Source: Chloroflexota bacterium
Lineage (GTDB): Bacteria > Chloroflexota > Dehalococcoidia > SHYD01 > JACQUQ01
Reading direction: 5' to 3'
NCBI GenBank assembly: GCA_016210175.1
Contig: JACQUQ010000078.1
Location: 1 to 62,637 of the forward strand
Length of the DNA stretch: 62,637 nt
The notes below the pieces were generated by a model, which saw only the letters and a list, made by a program, of their open reading frames with translations, ran no database searches and was not told the origin of the DNA. The position numbers were made by a program, and so were the translations under genes. Shown piece by piece: positions 4,382 to 25,559 of the stretch (its first letter is position 1; every line of letters begins with the position of its first letter).

Positions 4382-4427
4382 CGTTCCTCCTTCAGCGCGT
4401 ACGCGCCAGCAAACGTCCGCATCTTCC

Positions 4428-4871
4428 CTATTCCTCGGCCCCCGGTACCGGGCGACTATGCTCCGGCAAGTACGCGTCGGCGAACTTCCGCATCCACCCC
4501 AGGAGCGCCAGGGCTGTCTGCTGTGCCTGTTGGTACTCGGCACGTGAGCCCGCCATCAACGCCGCCATGAGGTCGGTCCCTTCCCGGTATACCTGATCGG
4601 GCCGCTCACTCTGGTGGGATACCGGCCCCAGCCAGTCTTGCAGCTCCTCATACAGCGCCCGCGCTGCCTGTGCCTGCACGCCTTTTCCCCCGGTAGCGGC
4701 CAGCAAGTAGGCGAGGGCCTGGCCCAGCCCGTTCTGGAGCACCATGCTCGGCAGCGAGCGTACCAGGGTCCCGTACTGCGAGGCGTACTTGTCCTGGGCA
4801 TGACGCTGGACGGTCTGGAGGGCGTAGAGCGCCCGTTGCTGTTCCAGGGTCTGCCTAGCCAAGAGCGCCAC
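4428..4871 (-). CDS. cmr5: Type III-B small subunit Cmr5
   Basis: A 147-aa protein, predicted almost entirely helical (LARQTLEQQRALYALQTVQRH, LLAATGGKGVQAQAARALYEELQDWL), with the size and position of the Cmr small subunit. Cmr5 lines the inner filament of the complex and helps hold the target RNA. Its start overlaps the end of cmr4 by 17 bases, implying translational coupling. Confidence 0.88.
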   Translation of the reverse strand: MALLARQTLEQQRALYALQTVQRHAQDKYASQYGTLVRSLPSMVLQNGLGQALAYLLAATGGKGVQAQAARALYEELQDWLGPVSHQSERPDQVYREGTDLMAALMAGSRAEYQQAQQTALALLGWMRKFADAYLPEHSRPVPGAEE

Positions 4872-6980: not shown

Positions 6981-6982
6981 GA

Positions 6983-9873: not shown

Positions 9874-11587
9874 CCTCCTGTTCCTCCTGTTCTGCTTCCG
9901 TGCCGTCCAGCACGACCAGTTCCCCCAGCACGAAGGGGTGTGCCCGCTGCTCCTCCGGTGTGCGGCGGTCCACCACCGCCACCCGCCGCACCGCAACACC
10001 CAAGCTACGTGCTGCGCCCGCGATCTGTTCCACGACGTACTGGATGACGGTGGTGCCCCCGGTCAGGTTGACCACGACCTCGCTTGCCTCGACGAGGCTG
10101 CGACGGAACTCGCCATCCAGCAGCGCACGCCCTTCCTGAAAGCCGGTCATGGGGTCTCTCAGTTCCCGCACCACCACCGGAAGCCCCGCCACGTCCGCCG
10201 CAGCCAGCGCGTCCGGAAGCCGCTGCCGTCCCTCGGCCGAAGTGATGACCACGACCCGGTCGGGTCGGACGTGCTGTACCGCCGAGTACAGCACGCCGGG
10301 AGAAAGGCCCAGCGGAGTCACCAGCAGCCGCATGATCCTAGACCGTTGCTGGGCGAGGCGTGGAAGGTCAGGGTCGGCCAGCAGGGCGGCACACTGCTGG
10401 ATGAGGTGGCCCACTTCCGCCACGTCGCCGGGCGTGAGGCGCACTTCGTCCTCGGTCATACCGGCGTGCGCGAACCGGTTGCGACGCTGCGCCACTCCGT
10501 CCCAGACGGTCGCCAGACGCTGCTCGGTAGCCGTAGCCACCCCGCTCCGCACGCGCTGGACCATACCACCGAGCTGGCGCTCCGCGGCCAGGCGTTGGGG
10601 GCGGCCCAGCCACTGCCGGGGACCACTGCTGCGCAGCACCACCAAGCTGACCAGCCACTCCCGCAGGAGCAGCAGCGCCGTTGGCAGGGCGTTCCGTTCA
10701 GCGTACCATTGGACCAGTGCGAGCTGGCGTTGCAGTTCCTCATCAGAGAGTGGCAGGTCCCGCTTGGACGGAGCGGGACGCGTCGCCCATGATGCCACCG
10801 GCCCACTGAGGATCCCCAACGAGCGCCGCCCCACCGATTGCGGACCGGCCTGCTGGGCGAGGGTCTCAACGGCAGCGTGCAACCGCCCGGCGGCCAGCCC
10901 GACCTCTACCGGCAGCCCGGCGGCCAGCGCCGGCGCCAAGTCTTCGATCGCGTCCTTGGCGCGGGAGAGCGCATGATCGCCCTGCCGCTCCTGGAAGAGC
11001 CGGGCCACCTCCTGCCGCAAAGAGTGTGCCACTGGCCGCAGGTCGCCGCTTTCGCGCGCGCTCTGCACTGCGTGGAACCATTCCGTCAAATTGAAGAGGG
11101 CGGTCAGGTCGAGGATCGGCCGCTCTCCCGTCTCCGGGTCTGGCAGTTCGAAGGCCCCATAGTAAATGCCCCGGATCGTGACCCCCCGGTAGGCCGTCAG
11201 GTAGGTGAGCGCGGCCAAATAGACGAAGGGGAGGTGGCGCAGGGCAAAGGTCACGTCAAGGACTACGGACTCCCCCTCCCCTACAGCTTCCACCAGCCGG
11301 TGGAAGGTTTCGAGGAACTCCTCGCGCGTTTTGCCTTCCGGCATGTCCACCGCCTCGGGCTCCAAGCCAGCTTCTGCCAACTCTGCGGCTACTGCCGGAT
11401 ACCATTTGTCCCGAGCGCCGGACGTGACCAGGACACTGGCTTTCCCTCCACGCAGATCCCGCAGCCGCGCCAGGGCAACCGGTGCGAAGCGACTGGCCCA
11501 CGTGCGGTCGTCGAGGGCATAGACCGTCTCGGTGTAGTTGCCCGTTCCGACCGAGCAGACCAGGTGGGGTACCTCCTGCGTCATCAT
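9857..11587 (-). CDS. CARF-HEPN-CARF ancillary effector (TM1812/Csx2-like with second CARF)
   Basis: A 576-aa protein starting MMTQEVPHLVCSVGTGNY, with GAGGAGGG upstream. The N-terminal domain (about 1-160) resembles the DxTHG/TM1812 CARF family: VCSVGTGNYTETVY followed by DVTFALRHLPFVYLAAL, in which the usual His-Gly is Phe-Ala. A helical region follows, with the HEPN RNase motif RNRFAH (His near residue 374). The last 160 residues form another Rossmann-like unit, VVVITSAEGRQRLPDAL and VVNLTGGTTVIQYVVEQI, a motif seen in Csm6/Can1/Card1 CARF domains. Predicted role: RNase activated by cyclic oligoadenylate from Cas10. It sits between cas4 and cmr1. Confidence 0.8.
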   Translation of the reverse strand: MMTQEVPHLVCSVGTGNYTETVYALDDRTWASRFAPVALARLRDLRGGKASVLVTSGARDKWYPAVAAELAEAGLEPEAVDMPEGKTREEFLETFHRLVEAVGEGESVVLDVTFALRHLPFVYLAALTYLTAYRGVTIRGIYYGAFELPDPETGERPILDLTALFNLTEWFHAVQSARESGDLRPVAHSLRQEVARLFQERQGDHALSRAKDAIEDLAPALAAGLPVEVGLAAGRLHAAVETLAQQAGPQSVGRRSLGILSGPVASWATRPAPSKRDLPLSDEELQRQLALVQWYAERNALPTALLLLREWLVSLVVLRSSGPRQWLGRPQRLAAERQLGGMVQRVRSGVATATEQRLATVWDGVAQRRNRFAHAGMTEDEVRLTPGDVAEVGHLIQQCAALLADPDLPRLAQQRSRIMRLLVTPLGLSPGVLYSAVQHVRPDRVVVITSAEGRQRLPDALAAADVAGLPVVVRELRDPMTGFQEGRALLDGEFRRSLVEASEVVVNLTGGTTVIQYVVEQIAGAARSLGVAVRRVAVVDRRTPEEQRAHPFVLGELVVLDGTEAEQEEQEDGPTL

Positions 11588-11669
11588 CAGCCCTCCTCTG
11601 CCACCCACTTACCTCCAAGAGCAACACACTCAGTCCTCAGTCCTCAGCACTCAGCACGCATTTACTCGT

Positions 11670-12293
11670 TCACCACACATCCGGGCACAGATTGCGGAAC
11701 TCGCAGTCCACGCACCTCCCCCGCATCCGGGTGGCCTCCGGAAGCGCCTCCTGCGCGATCGCCGCCCGGATCTCCCGTAAAGCTTTCCGCACCCAGCCCC
11801 GCATGTTCGACGTGATGCGCACCTCCTGGGCCCGCTTCTGGGGGATGAGGTAGATGAAGCCCCGGCGCACCGGACGCCGCCAGACCTCCTCCACCAGCAG
11901 GGCGTACGCCGTCAGCTGGTACTTGTGGTTCAGCCCGACCGCACCCTCGGAGTTCTTGAAGTCCACCGGGATGACCTCCCCCAGCGCCTCGACGACCATA
12001 TCCAGCCGGCCCCGCAGGCCCAGCCGGTCCGAGGACACGGCCACATCGAAGTGGCGCTGACCCTCAGCGAGGCCGTAGGCCCGCAGGCTCCGCCGCTCCT
12101 CCAGCTCGGCGATACGCTCGTGCTCCCGCCGGCCCTCCTCCATCTTGTAGGTGGTGGGCCGGGCCCGCACCGGCAGCAAATACGAGTAGTAGACGATGCG
12201 CGGGCAGTAGGGGTACTGCTTCACGTCGCTCACCGTGAGCATGAGGGGAGCCTCCCCGACGAGGGAGGGGCTAGCGGTCCACTCGGTAGTCAT
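11670..12293 (-). CDS. cas4: Cas4 Fe-S exonuclease
   Basis: A canonical 207-aa Cas4. The first cluster cysteine is in YPYCPRIVYYSYL, the RecB-type nuclease core is IPVDFKNSE with QLTAYALLVEE, and the last three cysteines are in CVDCEFRNLCPDVW. Cas4 trims prespacers with Cas1-Cas2 so that spacers carry the right PAM. Its start overlaps the cas2 end by 23 bases. All catalytic and cluster residues look intact, unlike the second Cas4 (Csa1) near the array. Confidence 0.95.
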   Translation of the reverse strand: MTTEWTASPSLVGEAPLMLTVSDVKQYPYCPRIVYYSYLLPVRARPTTYKMEEGRREHERIAELEERRSLRAYGLAEGQRHFDVAVSSDRLGLRGRLDMVVEALGEVIPVDFKNSEGAVGLNHKYQLTAYALLVEEVWRRPVRRGFIYLIPQKRAQEVRITSNMRGWVRKALREIRAAIAQEALPEATRMRGRCVDCEFRNLCPDVW

Positions 12294-12537
12294 CGGTGAC
12301 CACCTCTTTCATGAGGCGGAGGTCCTTCTCGCACACGGGCACCAGCTGGATGCGCGCCGGCCGCTGCCCGATAATGCGGCGCAGGCGCAGCAGGATCTCC
12401 TGCTGGCGGTTGTGGTTGAGCTCGCCCAGGAAAGCGCTGTACTGGACGCGGGCCAGGCCGTAGTCCAGGCAGGCGTCGGCCACCTTGGCCCGCGTCCCGT
12501 CGTGGGGGATGTCGTAGAGGAGGAGCACGGTGGTCAC
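12271..12537 (-). CDS. cas2: CRISPR adaptation protein Cas2
   Basis: An 88-aa ferredoxin-like protein opening TTVLLLYDIPHDGTRAKVADACLDYGLARVQYSAFLGEL, the classic Cas2 strand-turn-strand with the conserved Asp after the first strand. Cas2 dimers bridge two Cas1 dimers during spacer integration. It is translationally linked to cas4 downstream but separated from cas1 by cas8, cas7, cas5 and cas3. Confidence 0.96.
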   Translation of the reverse strand: MTTVLLLYDIPHDGTRAKVADACLDYGLARVQYSAFLGELNHNRQQEILLRLRRIIGQRPARIQLVPVCEKDLRLMKEVVTDDYRVDR

Positions 12538-12555
12538 TGGACGTATCCTTGGCGG

Positions 12556-14883
12556 TCAGTCGGGAGACATATCGGTGCGCAGGCCGATTTCGGGATCGTA
12601 CGGGAGGTTAATGGTGTTCAGGAACCAATCCTTCTCCCACGACAAGTGCTCGCGGAAGCGGTGCTCTTGCCATTCGGCAATGGGGACGAGAAGCTCGTTG
12701 GCGTGAAGGACAGAGGCTTCCCGCCGTCGTTCGTATTCATTCCGGAGGGCGAGAGGAAGCACTTCTGTGCCCTCGAACAGGTCGTCAAACTGGCGGCCGA
12801 GATCTTCGTCGCTCGCGAACGCCCGCAACGTGTCCAGGCATCCTCGCTGAAAGGTCATGAGAGCGCCCTCCACCCGGCGGATCCATTCCTCCGCCAGACC
12901 ATCCTTATACGCCTGGTCCAGCCACTCGCTCAGGCGGGCTTCGTCAATGTCTTCCCCATCGTGGCCGGACAGGATATCCAAACAGTTCTCGACCAGCCCG
13001 TCGTCGTAAATCCGTTGCCCGCTGCGGGGCTGGGTAAGCACCGTGACCGGCACGATCCCTTTCCTGCCCCGGCGATTGACGCGACCGAAACGCTGGGCCA
13101 GCGCTTCCAGGGGGGCGGGCTCTGTGACGATCCCGTCGAAGTCCAAATCCAGGCTGACCTCAATGACCTGTGTGGCCACCACTGCCAAGGGCCGAGAAGT
13201 CCCCAGTCGGCTGCGGATCACCTCTTCCTTTGCCAGCCGGTCTTCCACGGTGAACCGACTGTGCAGGAGCAGCACGGTTTCGGGGCCGAGCCGGTCCCGT
13301 AGCTCCTGCCAAGCTGTCTGCGCGGTCCGCACAGTGTTGGCGGCGACCAGGAGACGCTGGTTCTTGCGGCAGCGCTCGGCAATATGGTCAAGGATGGAGG
13401 GCGAGAGCAACTCGCCCTCCATGAGCTCAATCCTGTGCCGGCGGAACTCAGCAAAGAGGGATGGTTCCACAGCGAGCCGCTGGAGGCCCAAGTGCTTATC
13501 GAGCAGCCCAGCGAGCCAGGTGGGTGTCGTCGCGCTCATCGAGCAGACGACGCTGCCCCATGTACGCTGGAGTTCGGCTACGAGGCCAACGAGCAAGCCA
13601 AGCCGCTCCGCCTCATACGCATGGACCTCATCGAGGAGAAGGATGCTTCCACTCATTGCAGTCCAGAGGGCTTCATAGCCTCGCACGCGGTAGGCCGCAC
13701 GCAGCAACTGGTACGGTGTCGTGACCCATATCGCAGGCTGGTGCAGACGAGTCAGGTCAGTAGCTCGACGCGCGGCCAAATCCGCCTCCCGCGCTCGGTA
13801 GCCCTTCTGCTCCGTCAATTCCTTGTACAAGACCTGTGCGCTCCTCCCGTGCATGAGCGCGATGGGAGCGCCGGTCAGCCGTTGCAGCCGCGTCCGCATC
13901 GCATTGATACTCGCCTGATAGGGCAGCACGTAAATAAGACTCGCGTGGTGCCGCTCCTCCGTCTGCCTGCGCGCCCAGAGGAGCGCGGCCTCGGTTTTGC
14001 CGCTCCCCGTTGGGGCGACGAACATGATCGGGCCGCTCTGCTGCGCGGCGTCCCGCTGGTGCGAGCGGAGTGCCGAGAGGTTCAGCGTACGCAGGGTTTG
14101 GTCGGCATCTGGAAGGACCAGAGGCGCCAGGGGCGAGGCGTGGGCAGAGCCGAGATGATCCGAGAGCAACACCAGACCGCGCAGCGCCACGGCAGCACGG
14201 TTTTCCGGGCTGTCGGCAGGTTGCGCTCCGAGGCGACGCCACAACCGCTCATAGGCCCGCAGCCCGCGCCGGATCACCGCACTCGCCTCTTCGCAAAAGC
14301 GCTTCGGGTCGGGTGAGGTCGGGACTGCCCTGGGCGCTTCAACGTGCTCCGCGAATCCGAGCTCCGTAATCCACGGGCCGCTCATCGCGGAAAGCCACTG
14401 GGCAACCCCCGTAATCCACTTGTGTTGGATGCTGGCGATCCATTGCTCGATGTCCCAGTCCTCGACAGGAAAGTTGGGATTATAGCGCTCCGCGATGATC
14501 TCCTCAGCATCTCGATGGTGCGAAGCGATTCCCGCCGCGATCCACGGGAAGTCGGGGCCAGTGGGGTCCGCGACCCAGGGGAGGAAGGCCAGCGAGAAGA
14601 CCTCGTGGCGGTGACCTCTCCAGGATGCGCCGGTGCGGAGGTAGTCTTGGAATCCTTGCGTAAGCTTGCCCAGGTCATGGAGCCAGCAGGCCCAGAAGGC
14701 ACGGTGCGATAGTCGAGGCTCGCCCACCAGCTCCGGAAGCTGGGGATGTCGTTGCGCAAGCTGTGCCAAGCGACGCAGCACCTGCCGGGTATGCTGGGTA
14801 ATGGACTCACCAGCCTGGCCGCCGGTACCGCTTTTCGCAAAGGCATCCGCCAGCAAGGTTTGCCAATCGGAGTTACGGACCAT
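12556..14883 (-). CDS. cas3: Type I Cas3 HD nuclease-helicase
   Basis: About 775 aa. The HD nuclease is N-terminal (CWLHDLGK, His69-Asp70; then HRHE and SHHRD). The superfamily-2 helicase has Walker A APTGSGKTEA (290-299), DEVH (418-421), SMSAT and the motif V-VI block QVIEVSLDLDF with QRFGRVNRRG. Cas3 unwinds and degrades DNA marked by Cascade. Three ATGs lie close together; the one at 14883 has GGAG at six-base spacing and was chosen (14886 and 14895 are possible). The start overlaps the cas5 stop by about ten bases. Confidence 0.95.
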   Translation of the reverse strand: MVRNSDWQTLLADAFAKSGTGGQAGESITQHTRQVLRRLAQLAQRHPQLPELVGEPRLSHRAFWACWLHDLGKLTQGFQDYLRTGASWRGHRHEVFSLAFLPWVADPTGPDFPWIAAGIASHHRDAEEIIAERYNPNFPVEDWDIEQWIASIQHKWITGVAQWLSAMSGPWITELGFAEHVEAPRAVPTSPDPKRFCEEASAVIRRGLRAYERLWRRLGAQPADSPENRAAVALRGLVLLSDHLGSAHASPLAPLVLPDADQTLRTLNLSALRSHQRDAAQQSGPIMFVAPTGSGKTEAALLWARRQTEERHHASLIYVLPYQASINAMRTRLQRLTGAPIALMHGRSAQVLYKELTEQKGYRAREADLAARRATDLTRLHQPAIWVTTPYQLLRAAYRVRGYEALWTAMSGSILLLDEVHAYEAERLGLLVGLVAELQRTWGSVVCSMSATTPTWLAGLLDKHLGLQRLAVEPSLFAEFRRHRIELMEGELLSPSILDHIAERCRKNQRLLVAANTVRTAQTAWQELRDRLGPETVLLLHSRFTVEDRLAKEEVIRSRLGTSRPLAVVATQVIEVSLDLDFDGIVTEPAPLEALAQRFGRVNRRGRKGIVPVTVLTQPRSGQRIYDDGLVENCLDILSGHDGEDIDEARLSEWLDQAYKDGLAEEWIRRVEGALMTFQRGCLDTLRAFASDEDLGRQFDDLFEGTEVLPLALRNEYERRREASVLHANELLVPIAEWQEHRFREHLSWEKDWFLNTINLPYDPEIGLRTDMSPD

Positions 14884-15640
14884 CATGTGCTCCATCGAAC
14901 CGGTGCCACACCACGATGCGGCGCAGACCATTTTCCTCCGGGCTCAGCGGGTCTATCGAGAAAATCTCGCCCGGATCGGGTCGCATCGCTGAGGTTCCCT
15001 GGGTTGCTCCCTCACGGACCGCTACCCGGCGCTCCAGCACGACGTAGGGAGCCCACTCCACCCGTCGGCGATCCGTCGGGTCGATGAACCGCGGCATGGT
15101 TGCCATAACACCCACCGGGGTGCGCAGCCGCCAAGTCCAGGGGAGCAGCGTCCCTTCGAGGTAGCCCGATGCGGCCGCTTCCAGGTCCACGACTTGGACG
15201 GTGCGGTAGGCCGCCAGGTCCTGGGACCGACCCAAGACCACCGGGTAGCAGGGCTCGCGGAAGGCGCGCTCCAATTGCTCCAGCCAGCCCGGTGCGTCCA
15301 AGTACAACACCATCCGAGGGAACAGCAAGACCTCCCGCAAGAGCGGGTTGATATTCCCTTCCAGGTTCTTGGTGAACCCCATCGCCCTGTCGAGGCGTCC
15401 GCTGGCCGCCTCCACCAGGTGGGTGTTTTCCAGGTCATCCCCCTTTCCGGCAGCGGTGAAGGAGTAGGCGAACCGCAGCGTCGCCCGGTCGGGGAACTCG
15501 CCGAGCGCGCTGGCACTGTGTCCGTAGACCGTGGCGGGCGGCGGCATGGGAAAGCTAGGCTGCCGCCCCACCAGGAAATGGGGATACCGGAAGGATGTCG
15601 TCGTCCCTTCCAACTCGATGCGGAGCACCTGGCCGGCCAT
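14873..15640 (-). CDS. cas5: Type I-B Cascade subunit Cas5
   Basis: A 255-aa RAMP starting MAGQVLRIELEGTTTSFRYPHFLVGRQPSFPMPPPATVYGHSASALGE, the Cas5 N-terminal pattern in which the first strand is followed by a proline-rich loop. Cas5 binds the crRNA 5-prime tag and anchors Cas8. The start lies one base after the cas7 stop, and its end overlaps cas3. Confidence 0.92.
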   Translation of the reverse strand: MAGQVLRIELEGTTTSFRYPHFLVGRQPSFPMPPPATVYGHSASALGEFPDRATLRFAYSFTAAGKGDDLENTHLVEAASGRLDRAMGFTKNLEGNINPLLREVLLFPRMVLYLDAPGWLEQLERAFREPCYPVVLGRSQDLAAYRTVQVVDLEAAASGYLEGTLLPWTWRLRTPVGVMATMPRFIDPTDRRRVEWAPYVVLERRVAVREGATQGTSAMRPDPGEIFSIDPLSPEENGLRRIVVWHRFDGAHDGP

Positions 15641-15641
15641 G

Positions 15642-16754
15642 CTAGGCCATCCACGCGCTGCTCTGCTCCCCCCCAAGGTCCTCCGTCAACTGCGACAGGA
15701 TGGCACGGGGGTGGTCGAGCCGGTATTCCAGAGGCGGCTGCCGCAGGTCGCTATCTTGGGCGATCTCCTGGAGCGCCTTTTCCAGCGCGCTCCGCTGGTC
15801 GTCGTAGAACCCCTGCACCCAGCCCGCATAGAGCGGTGAAATCATCTGGTCGCCCCAGGCGCGAACCATCTCCTTCAGGGCATCGGTATGGATCCGGAGT
15901 TGCCCATCGGGGCCTGCTCCCACTACATATTGCAGCGGGTCGTTCCCTCCTTTGAAGACGCCTGCCAGGATGACGACCGGTGAGACATCGGTGTAGTGGA
16001 GAGCCTGCTTTGCGCCCCCGGAGACCAGGGCAAGTCCTTTGAGAAGAGCGGCTACCCGCTCAATCCGATCATCGATTTTCAGGCGGTAGCTCTTTTCCTG
16101 TGCGATGTACTCCAGGCCCGCGTCTACCGCCTGCTTGACGCGGTTGTCATCCAGGTTGCGATAGCCTGAACGCTGCACTTCGCTAAAGGTGCCCACCGCA
16201 TGTAGGTTCAGGGAAATGAGGCCCTTCAAGACGGCACGATAGAACTGGTGCTCGTGGGGGACCGGATCCCCTTCGTGCCGGGACATGGTACCGAAGTCGC
16301 GGGTCAGCGTGACGGGTGCGATGGCAATGAGCGGACTCACCCGGAACGGAGACACACGGGTAATCTCGCCGGTCGTGGGCGTCTCGCGGCCTACCCGGGA
16401 CTGATCGGCTTGGCGCGCCGCCGCAGCTTCTGTACGTCGGGAAGGTGCGCGCATGTACCCGAAAAGGTCGTCTTCCCAATACTCAATGGGGTTGCCATCA
16501 GTGTAGGCGACCTTTTGCTCCCGGAAGATGGGTGAGTTGATCCACGGGAGCTCTCCAGCCGCCGCGGCGGAGGCAAGGGTGGTGCGTAGCCAATAGCGGA
16601 ACGCCTGGGCCGAGACATAGGGGTAGGCCCCGTGCCGTGTCTTGATGACCTTGGTTGCAACAGCATTGTCCGTGCTTGCCTCCGGATCTCCCCCGGAGTT
16701 GTTCAAGGCCGATGCCGGCGCATCGACGAGGATGATACCGCTAAGGTACGCCAT
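15642..16754 (-). CDS. cas7: Type I-B Cascade backbone Cas7 (Cst2/DevR family)
   Basis: A 370-aa protein beginning MAYLSGIILVDAPASALNNSGGD, then NAVATKVIKTRHGAYPYVSAQAFRYWLRTTL, the signature of the DevR/Cst2 branch of Cas7. Cas7 polymerises along the crRNA spacer. It lies between cas8 and cas5 in the usual I-B order. Confidence 0.93.
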   Translation of the reverse strand: MAYLSGIILVDAPASALNNSGGDPEASTDNAVATKVIKTRHGAYPYVSAQAFRYWLRTTLASAAAAGELPWINSPIFREQKVAYTDGNPIEYWEDDLFGYMRAPSRRTEAAAARQADQSRVGRETPTTGEITRVSPFRVSPLIAIAPVTLTRDFGTMSRHEGDPVPHEHQFYRAVLKGLISLNLHAVGTFSEVQRSGYRNLDDNRVKQAVDAGLEYIAQEKSYRLKIDDRIERVAALLKGLALVSGGAKQALHYTDVSPVVILAGVFKGGNDPLQYVVGAGPDGQLRIHTDALKEMVRAWGDQMISPLYAGWVQGFYDDQRSALEKALQEIAQDSDLRQPPLEYRLDHPRAILSQLTEDLGGEQSSAWMA

Positions 16755-16789
16755 GATCGTCTACCTCCTGTCTGTCCGATGTCCCGACG

Positions 16790-18328
16790 CTAGACCGTTG
16801 CTCCCACTTCTTCGGCTTGTTCGTCAGCTTCCTCCCGGTCAACCTCGCTCATGATCTCTCGCCCTTCGGGCCGCTGGAACCAGCCGAGCCTGCACAGCTC
16901 CTCGACCATCCGGATACGGAGCAAATCCCACGCCAGACGCCAGTCTGCGCGAGCGACCTCCTCCCCCTCTTCAAAGACCGTGAGGAAATCGTCCAAAGTC
17001 ACCAAGGGCTCTCCCAACCGCTGGACACGCCGCCGATCCGCCCGGATGAGCGTATCCCGGACGGTACGATAGTCAGTGCGACCGGAGAAGAACCGCCGGA
17101 AGATCTGCCGGTCGTTGGTGTCGGCAATATCGGCGGCCACTCGATCTGCCAGCGACCGGATAGCTGTGACACGGACCTGTTCCATTCTCAGCACCTCCTC
17201 AAGAAACATGACCACAAAGGGCCAGCGTTCCTGCTTCAGCAGGGTCTCCGGCGTTAGACCTGCGATCTGCTCAGGGCGCCAGTTGAACCAACGGCGCAGA
17301 AATACACCGGCATTGTCGGGGAGCGTAAACAGGTCGTCGTAAAACCGGTTGCGGAGCGCCCGACGCTCTTCTTCCGGTGGCTCCTCGCCTTCTCGCCGCT
17401 TGCCTTCCCAGGCCCGCCGCACCGTCTGGTTCCACACGCCCCGGTATCGCTGGCCCTGCGCCCGCTTCACGAATTGCACGACGTTCGATGGCAAGGGGTA
17501 GATTTCGATGCCCGGACCCTGCCCGCTGTTGGAGAGGTGGTAGACCGTCAGCGGGCCTGCCTTCTCCACTTCCTCATCTTCACCGTCAGGTGCGCGTTCC
17601 TGCTGCCAGCGAGCCAGTGCTTCGATGACGCGCGTGCGCGGCCCGCGGATGTTGGCGGGCTTCGCGTCGGTCTGCACGCTCAACAACCGCTGGAGGGTTG
17701 CGAAGCGGTCTTGAACCACCGCCCTCAGGATTTCCCTATCCGCGGGGGCGTCTCCAACCTCTACAATGACGGCCTTCCCTTCGCAGTAAGGCGCACCGAT
17801 GGAAAGCGCCTGTAAGGCCACGATGCAGAGGCCGCATAGAGCGAGCCCATGTTGTCCCTGGGGAAAGAAGTTTATGACATCGCGACCTGTAAGCATTGGA
17901 ACTAGGTCACGATACGCTCGGGTTACCCCTTCTTTCTTGCATGAAGGACAGATAGCTTCGTGGTGAACCTGATCGCATCTCCCGCATAGGTTGGCAGGTC
18001 GGACGGACGGGCGGTGACAATACGCACACATGGGTCCGGTCTCGTCGAGCGGCCAGTTGAACGCCCTGAGAACCGCTTGGGCGTACTTTACCTTCTGGTT
18101 AGGAGTCCAACTCGTGTTGAGAAAGTTAGACGTGAAAAGCACAGTAAGGTACCCTGACAGTACCTTGCTGAAGTACCATCGTTCAGCTTCCTGGGCCAAC
18201 CGCTCTAGGTCCTCGACGGTGATCTCCTCCGGCATCTCCTTCCTAGCATAGACCAAGATCGCCGCGATCCCCATGTCGGGGAGCGGGTGTCCCGTCCACC
18301 TCAATCCGGCATACTGCTCACTTACCAT
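16790..18328 (-). CDS. cas8b: Type I-B large subunit Cas8 (Cst1, CXXC-CXXC family)
   Basis: A 512-aa protein with zinc-binding cysteine pairs CAYCHRPSVRPANLCGRC, CPSCKKEG and CGLC near residues 80-190, defining the Cst1-type Cas8. The C-terminal half is helical and charged. Cas8 reads the PAM and starts target DNA opening in Cascade. The start at 18328 is supported by AGGAG eight bases upstream. An earlier in-frame ATG at 18352 would overlap the cas1 stop and has a weaker ribosome site. Confidence 0.88.
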   Translation of the reverse strand: MVSEQYAGLRWTGHPLPDMGIAAILVYARKEMPEEITVEDLERLAQEAERWYFSKVLSGYLTVLFTSNFLNTSWTPNQKVKYAQAVLRAFNWPLDETGPMCAYCHRPSVRPANLCGRCDQVHHEAICPSCKKEGVTRAYRDLVPMLTGRDVINFFPQGQHGLALCGLCIVALQALSIGAPYCEGKAVIVEVGDAPADREILRAVVQDRFATLQRLLSVQTDAKPANIRGPRTRVIEALARWQQERAPDGEDEEVEKAGPLTVYHLSNSGQGPGIEIYPLPSNVVQFVKRAQGQRYRGVWNQTVRRAWEGKRREGEEPPEEERRALRNRFYDDLFTLPDNAGVFLRRWFNWRPEQIAGLTPETLLKQERWPFVVMFLEEVLRMEQVRVTAIRSLADRVAADIADTNDRQIFRRFFSGRTDYRTVRDTLIRADRRRVQRLGEPLVTLDDFLTVFEEGEEVARADWRLAWDLLRIRMVEELCRLGWFQRPEGREIMSEVDREEADEQAEEVGATV

Positions 18329-18345
18329 TGCGCTCTCTCCTGTGA

Positions 18346-19359
18346 TTACCATCTCCCCACAAAGGGCGTATAGGGTTTCCCTTCGCCCCGTACGAAGGTC
18401 GCCAGGTGGCGGGCCTGGCTCATGAGGACCGTCCGCAGCTTGTGCTTCTTGCCCTCGTAGGGCTCTTCCCCATCCAGGCGCTCGTTCACCCGCTCCGCCA
18501 AGAGGCGGCGGGTGGGCTCGGTCAGGCGGCCCTCCTCTACCTCCAGCGTGGCGCCCCGGTTGAGCAGTCCGAACACCGTCCGGTCCACTACCATCTGCCG
18601 GAACTCCTCGATGAGGTCCAGCACCAGGGAGGGCTTGCCCGCCCGGTCGACGTGCAGATACCCGGCATAGGGGTCCAGCCCGGCCAGGAGGATGGCCCGC
18701 TCCACGTGGCTGTACAGGATGCCGTAGCCGTAGTTCAGCAGCGAGTTCACCAGGTCCGTAGCTCCCCGCGTCTCCCGGCCCTCCCAGCCCACGTCCGGCA
18801 CCAGCAGCTCCCGCATGGCTTCCCAGTAGAGCTTGGCCCCGTGGGCCTCCAGGGTCATCAGCTCCTGGCGCAGGGCGTCCACGGTCTCGCTCCGCAGCCC
18901 CTGGACCTGCCGCCCGTAGTCCTGGATGCGGAAGGCCGCTTCCCGGGCCTGGTCGTAGCGGTCGAAGTCCTTCTGCCGCCGGTTCTTGGCCAGGTAGCGC
19001 AGCAGGGTGGCCTGGTTGGCCAGCTTCCCGGCCACGAAGGCCTTGCACAGGGTGACGCCCCGCCCGTCCAGGTAGGCCAGCAGCTGCTCCCGCCGGGTCC
19101 GCACGGTGCCGGTGAGGGCCGGCGAGATGAGGCGGGCGTAGGGCACGCCGCTCCCGGACAAGAAGGTGATGTCGATGCCCCGCTCGGCGCACTCCCGGAT
19201 GACGTCGCTGGAGAGGGAGACGCCCCCGGAGAGCACCAGCACGTGCTCCAGGCCGTAGAGGGGCCGCTCCTCCACCACTTCGCCCTTGAGGGAGACCCGC
19301 ACCCGCTCCGAGTGCTTGCCCACGAAGGCCCCGTATCGCTCCACGATCAGCTCGGCCAT
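18346..19359 (-). CDS. cas1: CRISPR integrase Cas1
   Basis: A 337-aa protein with the three metal ligands in place: Glu in TLEAHGAKLYW, His in AGYLHVDR and Asp in LVLDLIEEFR. LLNYGYGILYSHVE, conserved in Cas1, is also present. The start overlaps the cas6 end by 13 bases. Cas1 sits between cas6 and cas8 rather than beside cas2 and cas4, an unusual split of the adaptation module within one operon. Confidence 0.96.
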   Translation of the reverse strand: MAELIVERYGAFVGKHSERVRVSLKGEVVEERPLYGLEHVLVLSGGVSLSSDVIRECAERGIDITFLSGSGVPYARLISPALTGTVRTRREQLLAYLDGRGVTLCKAFVAGKLANQATLLRYLAKNRRQKDFDRYDQAREAAFRIQDYGRQVQGLRSETVDALRQELMTLEAHGAKLYWEAMRELLVPDVGWEGRETRGATDLVNSLLNYGYGILYSHVERAILLAGLDPYAGYLHVDRAGKPSLVLDLIEEFRQMVVDRTVFGLLNRGATLEVEEGRLTEPTRRLLAERVNERLDGEEPYEGKKHKLRTVLMSQARHLATFVRGEGKPYTPFVGRW

Positions 19360-20303
19360 CGCAACCTCACCCACCCATCGCCCTTGGTACAGTCCTTGCC
19401 GATGTGCGTCACCTCGCTCCAGAGGAGCCAGGGCAGGAATGGCCGCAGGTCGCCCCGGAAGGTGATCTCCCCCACCAGCCCGCCGATGGGCGTGAAACGG
19501 CCCTGCCGGGACGAATAGCTGGGCACGTCCACCCAGCGGGTGCGGTCGTCGGCGACCTGCACCGCCTCGGCCTGCTGCAACAGCTCCTGGTGGTCGAAGT
19601 CGGGCCTGGTCCCCGTTGCCGTCTCGCTCAGGTCGGTCAGGCGACGCAGCACCCGCCGCATGAGCAGCGGGAACGTCAGGCGCTTGACCAGCCGCTTCTC
19701 GACGATCAGGCGCAGCGGGGTCAGCAGCGCGACGGTCACCGCCGGCGGGCTGCCCAGCCGCTCGCACGCCGCCAGCACCCCCGCATGGGTGACGGCCAGC
19801 CCCGGCTGGCGCACCACCCGCTCGCCTGCCTCATAGATGCCTTCCGACTCGCCCGATACCGGGACCTGGGCCGAGATGCGCGCGACAGCGAACCGTCCCG
19901 CGGCCCGGCCCCGGTTCCCGATGCCGCCCTCGCCCATACGCCGGACGCCCAGCACGATATAAGGCAGCAGCGGGCGAGCCTCGCCGAACAGCGTGACGCC
20001 GAAGCTGAAGGCATCGCCGGTCCGGTAGAGTGTCCGGTCTTCCAGCGGCGGCTCCACGGTGCAGGGCCGGGCGACCTCCACCCCGCGGGCGCTCTCCTCG
20101 TCGGCGGTGGCCAGCAGCGCACAGACCGGGCACGCCTGCCGGAGACGGCTGTCGGCGCAGGCGCTCCCGCGCTGGTCCAGGCAGAAGTCCCGGCGTAGGG
20201 CACCGAACAGCGCCCCCCGGAGCATGCTGCCCTTATAGGGCGGCGTGACCATGTCGGTCTCGGCTTTGCACGAGAACTGGAGGACGTGGGCCTGGAGGTT
20301 CAT
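19347..20303 (-). CDS. cas6: CRISPR RNA endoribonuclease Cas6
   Basis: A 318-aa RAMP protein. The N-terminal PYKGSMLRGALFGALRRDFC segment with nearby cysteines (CADSRLRQACPVCALL) and the C-terminal GRFTPIGGLVGEITFRGDLRPFLPWLLW with HIGKDCTKGDGWVRL match the Cas6 family that cuts pre-crRNA at the repeat hairpin. It is the only Cas6 in the window and could supply crRNA to both the I-B and III-B complexes. The repeat hairpin plus 8-nt ACTGAAAG tag fit this role. Confidence 0.9.
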   Translation of the reverse strand: MNLQAHVLQFSCKAETDMVTPPYKGSMLRGALFGALRRDFCLDQRGSACADSRLRQACPVCALLATADEESARGVEVARPCTVEPPLEDRTLYRTGDAFSFGVTLFGEARPLLPYIVLGVRRMGEGGIGNRGRAAGRFAVARISAQVPVSGESEGIYEAGERVVRQPGLAVTHAGVLAACERLGSPPAVTVALLTPLRLIVEKRLVKRLTFPLLMRRVLRRLTDLSETATGTRPDFDHQELLQQAEAVQVADDRTRWVDVPSYSSRQGRFTPIGGLVGEITFRGDLRPFLPWLLWSEVTHIGKDCTKGDGWVRLRWPS

Positions 20304-20343: not shown

Positions 20344-22197
20344 CTACTCCACCATCCGCAGCTTGCAGGGCGTCGGGTCCACCGCCACCAGGAGGGGCCG
20401 CGCCAGGCTGGTGAAGGAGACGATGGCCTGCCCCGGCGCCAGGTTGGGGAGCTGGCCCCACAGGGCGTCGTCGATGCCCCCGATGGAGCGCCGCAGGCGG
20501 CCCACCACGTTGGCGTCGTTGACCTTGTGGATCACCCAGTTGTTGATGAGCCCCAGCACCTCATCGGGCAGGTGCTGCGGCAACTGGGTGATGAAGACCA
20601 GCCCCAGCCACCTTTTCCGCCCTCTGCGGGCAATGCGCGCCACCTGCTGGAACAGCGCCTCCATCTGCGTGATGCGCTCCGCGGACAAGAACTCGTGGGC
20701 CTCTTCGATGAAGACCACGGTGGGCGTGGGCCGCTTCCCCTCGGCCAGGGCCTTCTGGTAGTTCTCATCCTGCTGGACTTGCACGCCCCGGAGGATCTGG
20801 GCGATGACCAGGTTGTTCACGGTGGGCGAGTCGGTATCGCTCAGGTCGATAATGGACACCCGGCCCGGCTGGAGCATCTTCTCGTAGGTGAGGCTGTGGG
20901 CGTTCGGGTTGTCGAACACCTGGAGCCGGTGCAGCCGCCAGAGCTTGCTCAGTAGCACCCGCCAACTGACCTCGCTGTCGGGCTTGACCGCCTGCACCAG
21001 CCGCTTGATCTGCTCCAGGTGGCCCGTAAAGGGCGCATGGTACAGCTTCGGCTCCCCCGCGGCCTTGGACACCAGGTGGAGGAAGACCCCGGCGATATCC
21101 AGGAGGTGGGAGAGGGTCATGCGGGGGTAGCCGGTCTCCATCTCGTCCAGCTCCTGGGCCTCCCGCTCCTCTCGCTGGTTCCCCCGCGCCGGGTAGATGC
21201 CCACGTCCCGCAAGACCTGCTTGCACACGTCGTAGGCCTGGAAGAAACGGCTTTCCTGAGCCGACGACAGCTCCAGGATCTCCTTCACCGCGTAGGGCGA
21301 CAGTGCCCCGAAGTCCAGCCGGAACACGCCGATGCGTGGATGAGCAGGGTTGGCGGTCTCCCGCCCCACCAGGTGGTAGACGAAGGTCCGCTCGACCCCC
21401 GCCGGCACCAGCCCCCGCCGCGCCAGGGCCCGCAGCATGGCCTCATCCTCGGTGGGCTGGTCGATGGCGGTATACTCTCCCTCGGTGTCGAGGAGGATGC
21501 AGGCCACCCCCGCCTGCTGCAACTGGGCGATGAGGCCGGAGACGGTGGTGGACTTGCCGCCGCCGGTGGTACCCAGGATGCCCGTGTGCCGGGGCAACAC
21601 CGCCTTCTTGTCCGCGGGCACCCGCACCTCGATCTCGTCCTGGCCCTCGACCAGGCCCAGGCGAATGGTCCCATCGGTCCGCAGCACCCTGGCCGTGTCC
21701 TCCGGCGTGAGCAGGAACACCGGGCTGTTGGGCACCGGACGCCGGCGGGGCGGCACCACGCTGCCGTCGTCCAGCTCTTCGCCGAGGATCTCCACCTGGG
21801 CACGCCCGTGGTACTGGGGCATAAAGATGCCGCCCCGCACAGTGGCCGTCACCACGATGGGCGCATCGGCCCGCAGGCCGTCCGGCTCGGTAAAGGGACC
21901 CTTCACCACGATCCCCAGGTAGGTGCTCCTATCGGGTCGGCTCTCGATGCGCACCAGGGACTGGTTGGGCACCACCCCGATGCACGCCAGAGGCAGGAGG
22001 ATGGTCACGGTGCCGTCGGTGCTGGAGGGCGTATCGAACATAGTGTAGGCGACCGCGCCCGCGTCGTCGGGATGGCCCTGCCACTCGCCGCCCGCCGCCG
22101 CGATCTCCTCATCCAGCGCGTCGAGGGCCTCCGCCGGGACGGCCTGCACGCCCTCGCCCATGCTCCCCAGGGGAAGCGGATCGCTCCTGTCCGCCAT
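20344..22197 (-). CDS. herA: HerA-like FtsK/HerA superfamily ATPase
   Basis: A 617-aa ATPase. A beta-rich HAS-barrel-like N-terminus (about 60-180) precedes Walker A ILGTTGGGKSTT (209-217), and Walker B is TVVFIEEAHEF (ending near 503). FITQLPQHLPDEVL and a C-terminal AIVSFTSLARPLLVAVD tail follow the HerA/DUF87 pattern. HerA hexamers translocate DNA and usually drive a partner nuclease. The start at 22197 has GGAGG eight bases upstream. It lies 40 bases before cas6 and 19 bases after the NurA-like gene, all in one direction. Confidence 0.88.
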   Translation of the reverse strand: MADRSDPLPLGSMGEGVQAVPAEALDALDEEIAAAGGEWQGHPDDAGAVAYTMFDTPSSTDGTVTILLPLACIGVVPNQSLVRIESRPDRSTYLGIVVKGPFTEPDGLRADAPIVVTATVRGGIFMPQYHGRAQVEILGEELDDGSVVPPRRRPVPNSPVFLLTPEDTARVLRTDGTIRLGLVEGQDEIEVRVPADKKAVLPRHTGILGTTGGGKSTTVSGLIAQLQQAGVACILLDTEGEYTAIDQPTEDEAMLRALARRGLVPAGVERTFVYHLVGRETANPAHPRIGVFRLDFGALSPYAVKEILELSSAQESRFFQAYDVCKQVLRDVGIYPARGNQREEREAQELDEMETGYPRMTLSHLLDIAGVFLHLVSKAAGEPKLYHAPFTGHLEQIKRLVQAVKPDSEVSWRVLLSKLWRLHRLQVFDNPNAHSLTYEKMLQPGRVSIIDLSDTDSPTVNNLVIAQILRGVQVQQDENYQKALAEGKRPTPTVVFIEEAHEFLSAERITQMEALFQQVARIARRGRKRWLGLVFITQLPQHLPDEVLGLINNWVIHKVNDANVVGRLRRSIGGIDDALWGQLPNLAPGQAIVSFTSLARPLLVAVDPTPCKLRMVE

Positions 22198-22216
22198 GGC
22201 TGTCCCTCCCCACACC

Positions 22217-23458
22217 CTAGCGCCGGGTCTGGCGCTCCGTGAAGTACCGAAACGGCTCGCCCGCCTGGAGGTAACCCAGCTGGACCGAGGCATCGAAGGC
22301 GTCCCCGCCGAACATCACCCCGCACACGGTGTCCGCCAGGCTGATGAGCATGGGGAACCCCCGGTGCTCCTGCAACATGCTGTCCGCCAGCGCGATGTGC
22401 GCCGCGCTGTGGGCGTGGTCGCGATGGGCGTAGAAGAGGTGGGCCGGGGCCAGCCGCGAGGTCCGGTACGCCCCGACCACGACCTGGGGGCCAACCTCGC
22501 CGAGAAACTGCCGCAGGCGCGGGAGCACCGCCGTCCACGCGCCCCGGTAGTGCCCCTGGTCCACCAGCCGGCCCATCCAGTCCTCCAGGGTGTCCACGAT
22601 GGCGTACTCCAAAGGCCGGAGCGCATTGCCAATGGTGAGCCAGGCCCGCTCCTTGGGTGCGCTGGGCACGAACACGAACCTCCGGTGCCCCACTACCAGG
22701 TCGTGCAGCAGGTCAAGGCTCTGCTCCACCAGTTCGCTCATGCCGGAGCCGGTCAGCAGCTCATAGGCCAGGGGGTTGCCGTGCCCCATGCGCCAGGGGG
22801 CGGTGGACTTCTGGAGCAGCGCCGCCCGCTCGGCATAGGTCATGATGCCCCGGCGGGCCAGGTCGCTGAGGGTGTCGCTGGGGCTGGTCATGTCATACCC
22901 CGCGCGCTGCTGCCGACGCTCCAGCACCGCCAGAGTCTCGCCGACCGGGTCCACCCCGCCCGCCCGGACGTCGCGCCGGTACACGCGGTGGACCCAGGAA
23001 CCCTGGTCGCCGTGGTAGGCCACCAGGCTCACCCCGATCTGGTGGATGGTGACGGGCAGGGTATCGTGGGTAACGCTGGTGCCGTCGCACGCCTCCACGT
23101 TCCCCGTGAACAGCAGCCCCCGATGGACACGCGCCACCTCCTCGGCGGTGGTCTGGTAGACCCCGGCGCCCGGCGGGGCGTGGGCGCGCTCGCGCAGTCG
23201 GGGAAAGACCTGCTGGCGGATGCGCTTGGTGTACGCGCTCTCCTGCCGGACCGCCAGCGCGATCTCCCGCTCCGTGCGACCATAGAGGCTGAACAGGTCT
23301 TCCCCTGGACGCCAGCTGCCCAGGTCCAGGGTCTGGGACAGCGGTTCCCCCGTTGCGGCCTGGTAGTCATCGGACCCGATCATCACCAGGTCCGGCGGTA
23401 CCGGCGGCACGCTAAGGTCTCCCATCCCGGTATGTTGCTCAGGACTACGCGGGTGCAT
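22217..23458 (-). CDS. Putative NurA-like nuclease partner of HerA
   Basis: A 413-aa protein without a clear family assignment. The stretch NVEACDGTSVTHDTLPVTIHQIGVSLVAY (Asp near 125) resembles the first active-site motif of NurA nucleases (a strand ending in Asp-Gly-Ser/Thr), and ALRPLEYAIVDTLEDWM holds a later acidic pair. NurA normally sits next to HerA and resects DNA ends together with it, and this gene is immediately upstream of herA in a likely operon. The nuclease call rests on context plus this partial motif. Confidence 0.5.
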   Translation of the reverse strand: MHPRSPEQHTGMGDLSVPPVPPDLVMIGSDDYQAATGEPLSQTLDLGSWRPGEDLFSLYGRTEREIALAVRQESAYTKRIRQQVFPRLRERAHAPPGAGVYQTTAEEVARVHRGLLFTGNVEACDGTSVTHDTLPVTIHQIGVSLVAYHGDQGSWVHRVYRRDVRAGGVDPVGETLAVLERRQQRAGYDMTSPSDTLSDLARRGIMTYAERAALLQKSTAPWRMGHGNPLAYELLTGSGMSELVEQSLDLLHDLVVGHRRFVFVPSAPKERAWLTIGNALRPLEYAIVDTLEDWMGRLVDQGHYRGAWTAVLPRLRQFLGEVGPQVVVGAYRTSRLAPAHLFYAHRDHAHSAAHIALADSMLQEHRGFPMLISLADTVCGVMFGGDAFDASVQLGYLQAGEPFRYFTERQTRR

Positions 23459-23553
23459 GCGCGTCCTACCTGTCCTGGAGGTCCGTGTGCCCTCCTTCTA
23501 GGGAGTTCCCACCATACGAGCGAAGTGCGACACCCCACACCGCGGCCCGCCCG

Positions 23554-24300
23554 TTAGCGGCCCAGCCATTCCCGGAAAGACGGCCCGCCCCACCAGGCGC
23601 GGGCCAACCCCGCGCCGTAGGACGCCGCCACCGCCTGCGGCAGTCCGAAGTCGGTGGTGAGCGCCGCGACGAGGTGCCGTCGTCCCGCAGCAAACGCCAC
23701 CGGGCGCCCTGACAGGGCAACGCGCCGCTCCACCTCGGCATCCGGCGCCAGCAGTTCCAGGGCCAGCCGGTCGGCCTGGGCCTCGGCGTCCGCCACGGGG
23801 CCACAGCCCAGGACGCCGTCCGGTCGGCGCTCCATCAGGTGCGTGTGGGCGCCCATGGGCGCCTGGCAGAGGATGGCGTCAATCCGCTCGGTTGCCGTGG
23901 GTGGCCGCCGGCCGTCGAACACCTCCAGGAGAGACCGGCCCAGCCGCTGGACCGCGCGCCGGCGCGGCTCTTGGTAGTCCAGCAAGAAGTGGGCGACTTC
24001 GTGGGCGAGCGAGAACCGCTGTTCGTCGGCAGGGTCGGTCCCGTCGAGCAGCACGCACCCGCTCCCCCCGTAGGCGACCAGACAGCCGTGTAGCGGGCGG
24101 TCCGGCCCCCCCGCGCAGAAGGGGAGACCACGGGCGCGCAACCACGCCTCGGCATCCCGCACCCACAGGCGCGGCAGCTTCGCCACCATCAGGGGCAGCG
24201 CCCAGAGGACGGCCCCCTCCAGGCGACGCGGGAAAGGCTCTGGCCCGCCCGCAGCAGCCCAAAACTCCTGTGCGATGCGCTCCAGCCGCGGCTCCGTCAT
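23554..24300 (-). CDS. ImmA/IrrE-family metallopeptidase
   Basis: A 248-aa protein with the zinc-protease motif HEVAHFLLDY and a downstream acidic AEAQADRLALELL helix that supplies the third ligand in this family. ImmA/IrrE proteases cut or inactivate repressors after a DNA-damage or invasion signal. The ATG at 24300 overlaps the stop of the HTH-type gene (ATGA), making that protein the probable partner. It ends 95 bp before the NurA-like gene, in the same direction. Confidence 0.85.
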   Translation of the reverse strand: MTEPRLERIAQEFWAAAGGPEPFPRRLEGAVLWALPLMVAKLPRLWVRDAEAWLRARGLPFCAGGPDRPLHGCLVAYGGSGCVLLDGTDPADEQRFSLAHEVAHFLLDYQEPRRRAVQRLGRSLLEVFDGRRPPTATERIDAILCQAPMGAHTHLMERRPDGVLGCGPVADAEAQADRLALELLAPDAEVERRVALSGRPVAFAAGRRHLVAALTTDFGLPQAVAASYGAGLARAWWGGPSFREWLGR

Positions 24301-24773
24301 TGCTGCTCCGGCGGCCCGCCCTCCGCGCCCGGTGCGGCGGCATCCTCCGTCGGCGCGCCGGAAGCCCCTGGCTCTGTGGGCCCGGCCTCCGGGGCCGCGC
24401 TCGCGCCGCGGTCGCGGGCGGCCAGCAGCATCCCCCGGTCGTCGCAACGGTCCTGCTGCGGCCCGGCCCGGCGCAGGGTGCGGACCACGTCTACCTCCCG
24501 CAGCAGTTGGGCCAGCCGTTCGGCGCGCGCCCCCACGTGCTGCGCAATACGCTCAACCTCGCTGCGGAAGTCTGCTCCCGCAGGGTCCGGCCGCCGGCAG
24601 AGCGCGAGCCGGGGCAATTGTTCCGGTGAACAGCCGAGCAAGTCCGCCAGGGCTTCCTCTCCCACCTGATGCAACTCCATGTATGCGGCCAGATCGCGCG
24701 CGACAAAAAAGGGACGCGCTGCCGCCCGCTGCGCCGCCCGCCGGAGGAACCCGAAGTCGCGACGTTTACTCAC
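24297..24773 (-). CDS. Putative HTH regulator paired with ImmA/IrrE
   Basis: A 158-aa protein. Residues about 25-60 (YMELHQVGEEALADLLGCSPEQLPRLALCRRP) resemble an XRE-like helix-turn-helix. A helical segment follows, and then a low-complexity tail rich in Ala, Pro, Gly and Glu from about residue 120. It overlaps the sigma-factor gene by eight bases and the protease gene by four. Role inferred from the pairing: DNA-binding repressor or antitoxin that the protease inactivates. Confidence 0.6.
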   Translation of the reverse strand: MSKRRDFGFLRRAAQRAAARPFFVARDLAAYMELHQVGEEALADLLGCSPEQLPRLALCRRPDPAGADFRSEVERIAQHVGARAERLAQLLREVDVVRTLRRAGPQQDRCDDRGMLLAARDRGASAAPEAGPTEPGASGAPTEDAAAPGAEGGPPEQQ

Positions 24774-25386
24774 GGAACTGTTCTCCCCATCGCTGGAGGC
24801 GCTTCTTGATCCGGTCCTTGTGCCGCTTCACGATCCTCCGCTGCTGTGCCACGTCGAGCCGTTCCAGTCCCAGCACCGCGCTATAGGCGGCGGTGCGGCG
24901 CTCCCCCTCGAAAATGAGTTGGAGAAGCTGGCGGTCCAGCGGATCGGGGAAGGCTTGGAGCAGCCGCTGCTCCCACTCCCTCGCCGCCCACTCCCTGGCA
25001 ACCACCTCGGCGGGGTCGGTCGCTTCCTCTATGAGCGTATTCCGGTCTCCTCCGCGTTGTGCGACGTCGTCCAGGGGAAGGGTCCGTCCGGAGCGCCGGT
25101 CCTCCCGCGCCCAGGCGTTCTGGAGGTCACGCCAGGCGGACATTGTGAGGTAGGCCAGGAGGCTGCCCCTGGTGGGATCGTAGTGGGAGGGGCCTTCGAT
25201 ATAGTCCATGAGGGCATCCGTGGCGGCGTCATACAGTGCCATGTCGTCCCACGGCCCCCGCAAGCGGGCGCGCAGTCGCCGTATCAGGCGCTCCAGATAC
25301 GCCTCAGCCAGGTCCTCCGGGGCGACCGGGTCGCACGCGCGGAGGCGCTGATGGATCTGAAGCTCGAACGGCGTTGGTGCGGTCAT
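24766..25386 (-). CDS. RNA polymerase sigma factor, ECF-like
   Basis: A 206-aa protein with a region-2-like block (ALYDAATDALMDYIEG, YDPTRGSLLAYLTMSAWRDLQNAWARED) and a region-4-like C-terminus (PLDRQLLQLIFEGERRTAAYSAVLGLE, VKRHKDRIKKRLQRW). It is the first gene of a three-gene overlapping run (sigma, HTH, protease) immediately upstream of the HerA/Cas operon. No separate anti-sigma gene is visible; the HTH protein or protease could fill that role. Confidence 0.8.
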   Translation of the reverse strand: MTAPTPFELQIHQRLRACDPVAPEDLAEAYLERLIRRLRARLRGPWDDMALYDAATDALMDYIEGPSHYDPTRGSLLAYLTMSAWRDLQNAWAREDRRSGRTLPLDDVAQRGGDRNTLIEEATDPAEVVAREWAAREWEQRLLQAFPDPLDRQLLQLIFEGERRTAAYSAVLGLERLDVAQQRRIVKRHKDRIKKRLQRWGEQFRE

Positions 25387-25447: not shown

Positions 25448-25559
25448 CTAGTGTTCTGTCAGCCGTGACCTGATGGGTGAGACCGCCGCCGTGAACGGCG
25501 GGCCCGCCCTTCAGGGCGGCGGGATGGCACCCATCACAGGAGGATTGACAGAGCACTAG
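25448..25559. mobile_element. MITE-like element
   Basis: A 112-bp stretch bounded by near-perfect 14-bp inverted repeats, CTAGTGTTCTGTCA and TGACAGAGCACTAG (one mismatch). The TA at each end would suit an IS630/Tc1-type TA target duplication. The interior carries GC-rich palindromes (CCGCCGTGAACGGCGG and CCGCCCTTCAGGGCGG) and no ORF. It lies 61 bp upstream of the sigma-factor gene. Confidence 0.65.

Follow-up and report, generated by a model that had tools for sequence, protein, structure and literature searches.

We analyzed a stretch of DNA of 62,637 nucleotides (the window), in which minus-strand genes for a sigma factor, an HTH-like protein and an IrrE-type protease precede a HerA gene and a CRISPR-Cas operon. 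The order of transcription is sigma, HTH, IrrE, a 95-nt gap, a gene in the position where NurA would be expected (NurA-position gene), HerA, and then cas6 onward. The features are as follows.

24766-25386, minus strand: ECF-type sigma factor, 206 aa, regions 2 and 4 (Pfam, AlphaFold2 model, PDB fold matches; kept in relatives)
24297-24773, minus strand: HTH-like protein, 158 aa, predicted helical domain and disordered tail with AARD (alignment, AlphaFold2)
23554-24300, minus strand: ImmA/IrrE (M78) zinc protease, 248 aa, HExxH (PF06114, PADLOC capP)
22217-23458, minus strand: NurA-position gene, 413 aa, fixed partner of HerA (no family match)
20344-22293, minus strand: HerA-type DNA translocase (Pfam: DUF87, 70 bits; HerA_C, 46 bits)
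19347-20303, minus strand: cas6, first gene of the docked CRISPR operon (Pfam/NCBIfam)
18346-19362, minus strand: cas1, after cas6 (Pfam/NCBIfam)
14873-18352, minus strand: cas8b-like (Cst1), cas7 (Cst2/DevR) and cas5t, type I-B effectors (profile matches)
11670-14931, minus strand: cas3 and cas4 (PADLOC)
9857-11608, minus strand: Csx1/Csm6-like CARF-HEPN-CARF ancillary nuclease (PADLOC)
3434-9999, minus strand: type III-B module of cmr1, cas10, cmr3, cmr4, cmr5 and cmr6 (cmr1, cmr3 and cmr6 by PADLOC)
1652-2210: CRISPR array, 8 repeats CTTTCAGTACCCTAAAAGCGGGTCGATTGATTGCAAG

Proteins encoded at the locus

The first-pass annotation had described a trio of overlapping genes for a sigma factor, a putative DNA-binding protein and a repressor-type protease. 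The three minus-strand ORFs are present and overlap by a few bases, and their codon-position GC is as expected for coding sequence. The sigma protein scored 21.7 bits (E 1.8e-4) against Pfam Sigma70_r2, under the cut-off of 24. Its AlphaFold2 model reached a pLDDT of 90, and when Foldseek was run against the PDB, the top matches were essentially all sigma factors, mostly ECF. The protein has the sigma fold with regions 2 and 4 only, as is characteristic of ECF factors. As modeled, it is a sigma factor, weakly so by sequence and clearly so by fold.

For the 158-aa HTH-like protein, Pfam and NCBIfam scans returned no family above threshold. Its AlphaFold2 model consists of six confident helices (pLDDT 96-98 for residues 11-100, and 56-69 in the tail). 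The fold matches are XRE-like and weak (Z 3-4), and they include the N-terminal domain of CapH and the restriction-modification (R-M) controllers C.BclI and C.AhdI. None of them reached E <= 0.001, and a stable XRE assignment was dropped. An alignment of 33 rows revealed an AARD motif near the C-terminus, preceded by a variable linker and located at residues 118-121 of the window protein; Ala-Ala is present in 33/33 rows, and Arg and Asp each in at least 90%. We consider AARD a candidate IrrE cut site or sigma-docking site.

The protease had earlier been assigned to the 158-aa protein; it is in fact the 248-aa protein, which scored 29.8 bits against Pfam Peptidase_M78 (PF06114; cut-off 22) and 1.4e-7 against PADLOC capP. 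It contains HEVAH, and HExxH and a downstream Glu, the hallmarks of M78, are invariant. Its best sequence matches in the PDB, both weak, are IrrE and CapP.

The next gene had been labeled NurA-like. This label found no support: the 413-aa protein matched no family in Pfam, NCBIfam or PADLOC, including the Pfam NurA family PF09376, and had no profile similarity to NurA, so that a NurA identity was rejected on sequence. Neither Sir2 nor DUF4297 was detected in it by PADLOC and Pfam. Residues E210, H345 and D359 are invariant. A recognizable NurA gene stands elsewhere in the same genome (G000:C272:2808-3722). The HerA protein contains the DUF87/HerA ATPase domain and is best matched by archaeal repair HerA (Sulfolobus HerA 4d2i, E 8.7e-21).

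Downstream of HerA, Cas8b1/Cst1, Cst2, Cas5t and Cmr proteins identify CRISPR-Cas types I-B and III-B; cas10, cmr4 and cmr5 were named from position and sequence only. Three further observations concern the surroundings. Between cas1 and cas8 (18346-18352), we noted that the window has no Cas2 ORF. At 2497-3403 (minus strand), a Cas4/Csa1-like PD-(D/E)XK gene is split over two overlapping frames, as if frameshifted. Between the sigma gene and a divergent MarR-type gene lies an imperfect palindrome of ~112 bp (25448-25559) with ~40 copies in the genome, which looks like a MITE-type repeat.

A five-gene cassette and its neighbors

A genome scan with the single protease sequence gave no match. 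When a protease alignment was used, 44 loci were retrieved (Chloroflexota, Planctomycetota, Myxococcota, Deinococcota, KSB1 and others), and practically all have the five genes collinear and on one strand. A separate search with the NurA-position protein returned the same fixed gene order. Altogether, about 60 loci, with Chloroflexota, Planctomycetota, Myxococcota and Deinococcota among their hosts, nearly all show the order sigma-HTH-IrrE-NurA-position-HerA. Among 400 genomes of the phylum, 19 contain both the protease and the NurA-position protein, and one, at a contig edge, contains the protease alone; the NurA-position protein was never clearly found without the protease. The distribution is patchy (20/400 of these genomes). 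The fixed order in both searches and this co-occurrence show that the trio is the front of a five-gene cassette, which is a fixed, horizontally spread operon across many bacterial phyla.

Plasmid searches gave no match. Two IMG/VR contigs, putatively viral or mobile (L122 and L123), carry the whole cassette plus a methyltransferase, and on L122 we also noted, by eye, type I R-M-like genes beside the cassette and recombinase-like genes. A distant version of the cassette (L016 1755-11225, genome G011) has Mre11- and Rad50-like genes behind it.

At 10 loci or more, herA is immediately followed by same-strand cas genes, and several subtypes are represented. The first genes are cas6-cas1 in the window, L020 and L098; cas1 in L084; cas4 in L091 and L093; cas4-cas1 in L034 and L039; a type I-G-like cas3 in L026; and cmr1 in L059. 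Outside the window, these calls were confirmed by PADLOC, except in L020, where they rest on similarity to the window genes. At another locus (L023), Cas3 is encoded somewhat farther downstream. Cas1 lies within about 12 kb of 10 cassettes versus 0.4 expected (P 2e-11), and at least 6 changes of the CRISPR label are needed on the tree built from the NurA-position protein. The cassette has been placed ahead of CRISPR-Cas genes repeatedly.

The first-pass annotation had seen the trio as heading a defense island of HerA and Cas genes and as a possible invasion-triggered switch for the whole operon, a reading that our results support in part. The trio does recur ahead of HerA and, in the 10 or more loci listed above, ahead of cas genes. 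Its constant companions are the NurA-position gene and HerA and not a CRISPR island: cas genes are missing from the vicinity of most cassettes, and a CRISPR-specific island was therefore rejected. A trio found mainly beside housekeeping genes, with no promoter, would have argued against the annotation; instead, it stands beside HerA, and the gap behind it carries a conserved promoter-like motif. Other neighbors include an N4/N6 DNA methyltransferase, which adjoins the cassette in about 24 loci in an upstream, divergent or downstream position. No adjoining methyltransferase was found in Myxococcota s.s. (Myxococcaceae, Archangiaceae) or at the window, and the nearest homolog in the window genome is encoded elsewhere (37% identity). 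Behind herA, some loci carry AddAB-like genes, UvrD with an exonuclease, or an Hsp90-like ATPase.

A promoter-like motif at two sites

The gap before the NurA-position gene (23459-23553), which had been proposed for reporter tests, contains a conserved ECF-like promoter motif, and a second copy lies within the sigma gene.

23506-23531, minus strand: intergenic promoter-like motif GTCGCACTT-N13-GGAA (window sequence GTCGCACTTCGCTCGTATGGTGGGAA), ahead of the NurA-position gene
25038-25065, minus strand: internal motif copy GTCGCACAACGCGGAGGAGACCGGAATA within the sigma gene, at the linker between the two sigma domains

The bipartite consensus is GTCGAACTT-N13/14-GGAA. It is ECF-like and non-palindromic, its spacer varies by one base, and it contains GAACTT, which is typical of known ECF -35 boxes. 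The intergenic copy was found within 200 nt upstream of the NurA-position gene in 27 of the 38 non-myxococcal loci, with 0.011 expected per 200-nt window; with one exception, it is located 35-75 nt ahead of the start codon. The Myxococcota loci are without a gap before the NurA-position gene, and there the motif is upstream of sigma (15/16).

At the sigma linker, 42 of 44 loci carry the internal copy in frame. In a synonymous-codon shuffle, its conservation gave a Fisher combined p of 1e-22, a value that ignores shared ancestry; for the window alone, p was 0.06. The shuffle indicates that the DNA, and not only the protein, is conserved at this site. Moreover, the two copies co-vary: a C at position 5 of the intergenic motif tends to go with a C in the internal one (p 0.001). 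The sigma factor is predicted to recognize the motif.

One genome (G240) has a strict motif copy directly ahead of a separate cas6 gene. In the window genome, 2 strict sites were found, about the number of control matches. A wide sigma regulon was rejected, as strict matches elsewhere in genomes are about as frequent as control matches, and most of the non-cassette matches examined (C116 of the window genome; G079 C79; G437 C23) precede unrelated genes. In Calidithermus, a motif close to a type I-C-like cas operon was left out of the count because it falls within cas3, at the 3' end of that gene and a long way from the next start.

Proposed regulation and relation to known systems

The recurrent placement of the cassette suggests a protease-triggered switch for DNA-targeting defense or repair. 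With moderate confidence, we propose that IrrE inactivates the HTH protein as an inhibitor and that the freed sigma factor drives the HerA module and the docked genes. At rest, the ECF-type sigma factor would be kept inactive by the HTH-like protein. DNA ends, single-stranded DNA (ssDNA) or an invading genome would trigger the IrrE protease, which would cut the HTH protein, with the C-terminal AARD or its close surroundings as the most likely site. The freed sigma would then fire the promoter within its own gene, giving more HTH protein and protease (feedback). It would also fire the promoter ahead of the NurA-position gene, giving the NurA-position protein, the HerA DNA pump and the docked genes, which in the window genome are the type I-B/III-B CRISPR-Cas operon.

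This proposal is based on the AARD conservation, the PprI/IrrE-DdrO precedent and two CRISPR precedents that combine a protease with an ECF sigma factor. It is further favored by the constant gene order, the motif at both sites and the recurrent docking on cas operons; the lack of a wider motif regulon in the window genome and the absence of cas neighbors at most cassettes weigh against it. In Deinococcus, ssDNA activates PprI/IrrE, which cleaves DdrO within a loop that has a critical Arg (PMC10904395). In two CRISPR-linked cascades of protease, anti-sigma factor and sigma factor, CalpL-CalpT-CalpS and Csx29-Csx30-CASP-sigma, the protease cuts the inhibitor and the ECF sigma factor is released (PMC11417357, PMC10028731).

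The HTH protein could be a repressor instead of an anti-sigma factor, because its weak fold matches (Z 3-4) point to XRE-type DNA binders. It would then act like DdrO, ImmR or CapH on the conserved sites, IrrE cleavage would derepress them, and sigma would be an auxiliary activator. The matches to CapH, C.BclI and C.AhdI agree with this, and the partners of IrrE and CapP are HTH repressors or transcription factors (PMC10904395). We regard this version as rather unlikely: the conserved site is asymmetric, with a variable spacer and an ECF-like -35, and the XRE-like matches are weak. XRE dimers usually bind palindromes, which also counts against a repressor. An unlikely alternative to a defense role is a DNA-repair operon, in which damage induces HerA-driven end processing and the CRISPR neighbors are bystanders. 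PprI/IrrE does control the Deinococcus damage response (PMC10904395), archaeal repair HerA is the best match of the translocase, Mre11 and Rad50 follow the distant cassette version, and AddAB-like or UvrD partners lie downstream in some loci. A repair operon accounts poorly for an association with cas operons far over chance, for the frequent DNA methyltransferase, for the two putative viral or mobile contigs and for the patchy occurrence.

The methyltransferase at about 24 loci could also point to a self-standing R-M-like defense, made up of this enzyme, a NurA-position nuclease and HerA with their own controller, and found near CRISPR only since defense genes cluster. Controller proteins near R-M genes are a familiar theme, and type I R-M-like genes do stand beside the cassette on L122. 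We doubt this explanation. Island clustering predicts less order than we found, since the cas genes are directly behind herA and on the same strand in all ten cases and a separate cas6 bears the motif; in addition, the window cassette has no methyltransferase nearby. Weak PADLOC RmrA matches and a described Xre/zinc-metalloprotease toxin-antitoxin pair in Brucella (PMC10538038) would fit an HTH/IrrE pair that is a toxin-antitoxin-type or RosmerTA-like unit hitch-hiking with HerA. In this family, the pair is essentially always accompanied by sigma and the HerA partner, making such a unit highly improbable.

Beyond a few models, little is known about how cells under attack turn on CRISPR-Cas expression. 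The cassette supplies a sigma factor and its putative inhibitor, a protease, and a promoter sequence that is conserved across phyla, and with all four at hand its wiring is directly testable. A broader idea, which we put forward only tentatively, is that the sigma/HTH/IrrE unit, with the promoter hidden in the sigma gene, is a portable alarm head through which proteolysis, set off by DNA ends or ssDNA, controls HerA effectors as well as CRISPR-Cas operons of various subtypes. If true, adaptive immunity would be linked to DNA-damage sensing. No earlier description of a sigma-HTH-IrrE-HerA cassette or its promoter was found in the searchable literature, within the reach of which two CRISPR-linked gene-neighborhood surveys did not fall.

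HerA and NurA near CRISPR have been noted before, in the nurA-csm6-herA clusters of Pyrobaculum (PMC3396285) and as putative CRISPR auxiliary genes in FLSHclust (PMC10910872). Our loci likewise link HerA and a partner to CRISPR; in contrast, no sigma/HTH/IrrE was described in those cases, and the window partner is unrecognizable as NurA. The Sir2-HerA and DUF4297-HerA defense pairs also combine HerA with an upstream partner in one operon, whereas here the partner is without a PADLOC match and the sigma cassette is the predicted regulator. With CapP-CapH of CBASS, the cassette shares an IrrE-family protease and a small HTH protein predicted to control a defense operon. Unlike CapP-CapH, it has a sigma factor and HerA in place of a CD-NTase; Pfam, NCBIfam and PADLOC scans of window proteins detected no such enzyme.

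As in PprI (IrrE)-DdrO of Deinococcus, an IrrE-type protease stands beside an HTH partner in a DNA-damage logic (predicted here), and a candidate Arg-containing cleavage region lies near the HTH-like C-terminus. The cassette differs in its dedicated sigma factor and HerA operon and in a shorter protease with no GAF-like domain evident, and its HTH partner is at most a putative repressor, given the weak XRE-like folds. CalpL-CalpT-CalpS and Craspase (Csx29-Csx30-CASP-sigma) of type III CRISPR resemble it in bringing together a protease, an inhibitor (putative here) and an ECF sigma factor beside CRISPR. Unlike CalpL and Csx29, the cassette protease is M78, not Lon-SAVED or TPR-CHAT, and unlike those systems the cassette occurs mostly apart from CRISPR and, where docked, accompanies several subtypes. 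If the proposed switch is correct, IrrE damage sensing and protease-released sigma factors would be joined in one horizontally spread unit.
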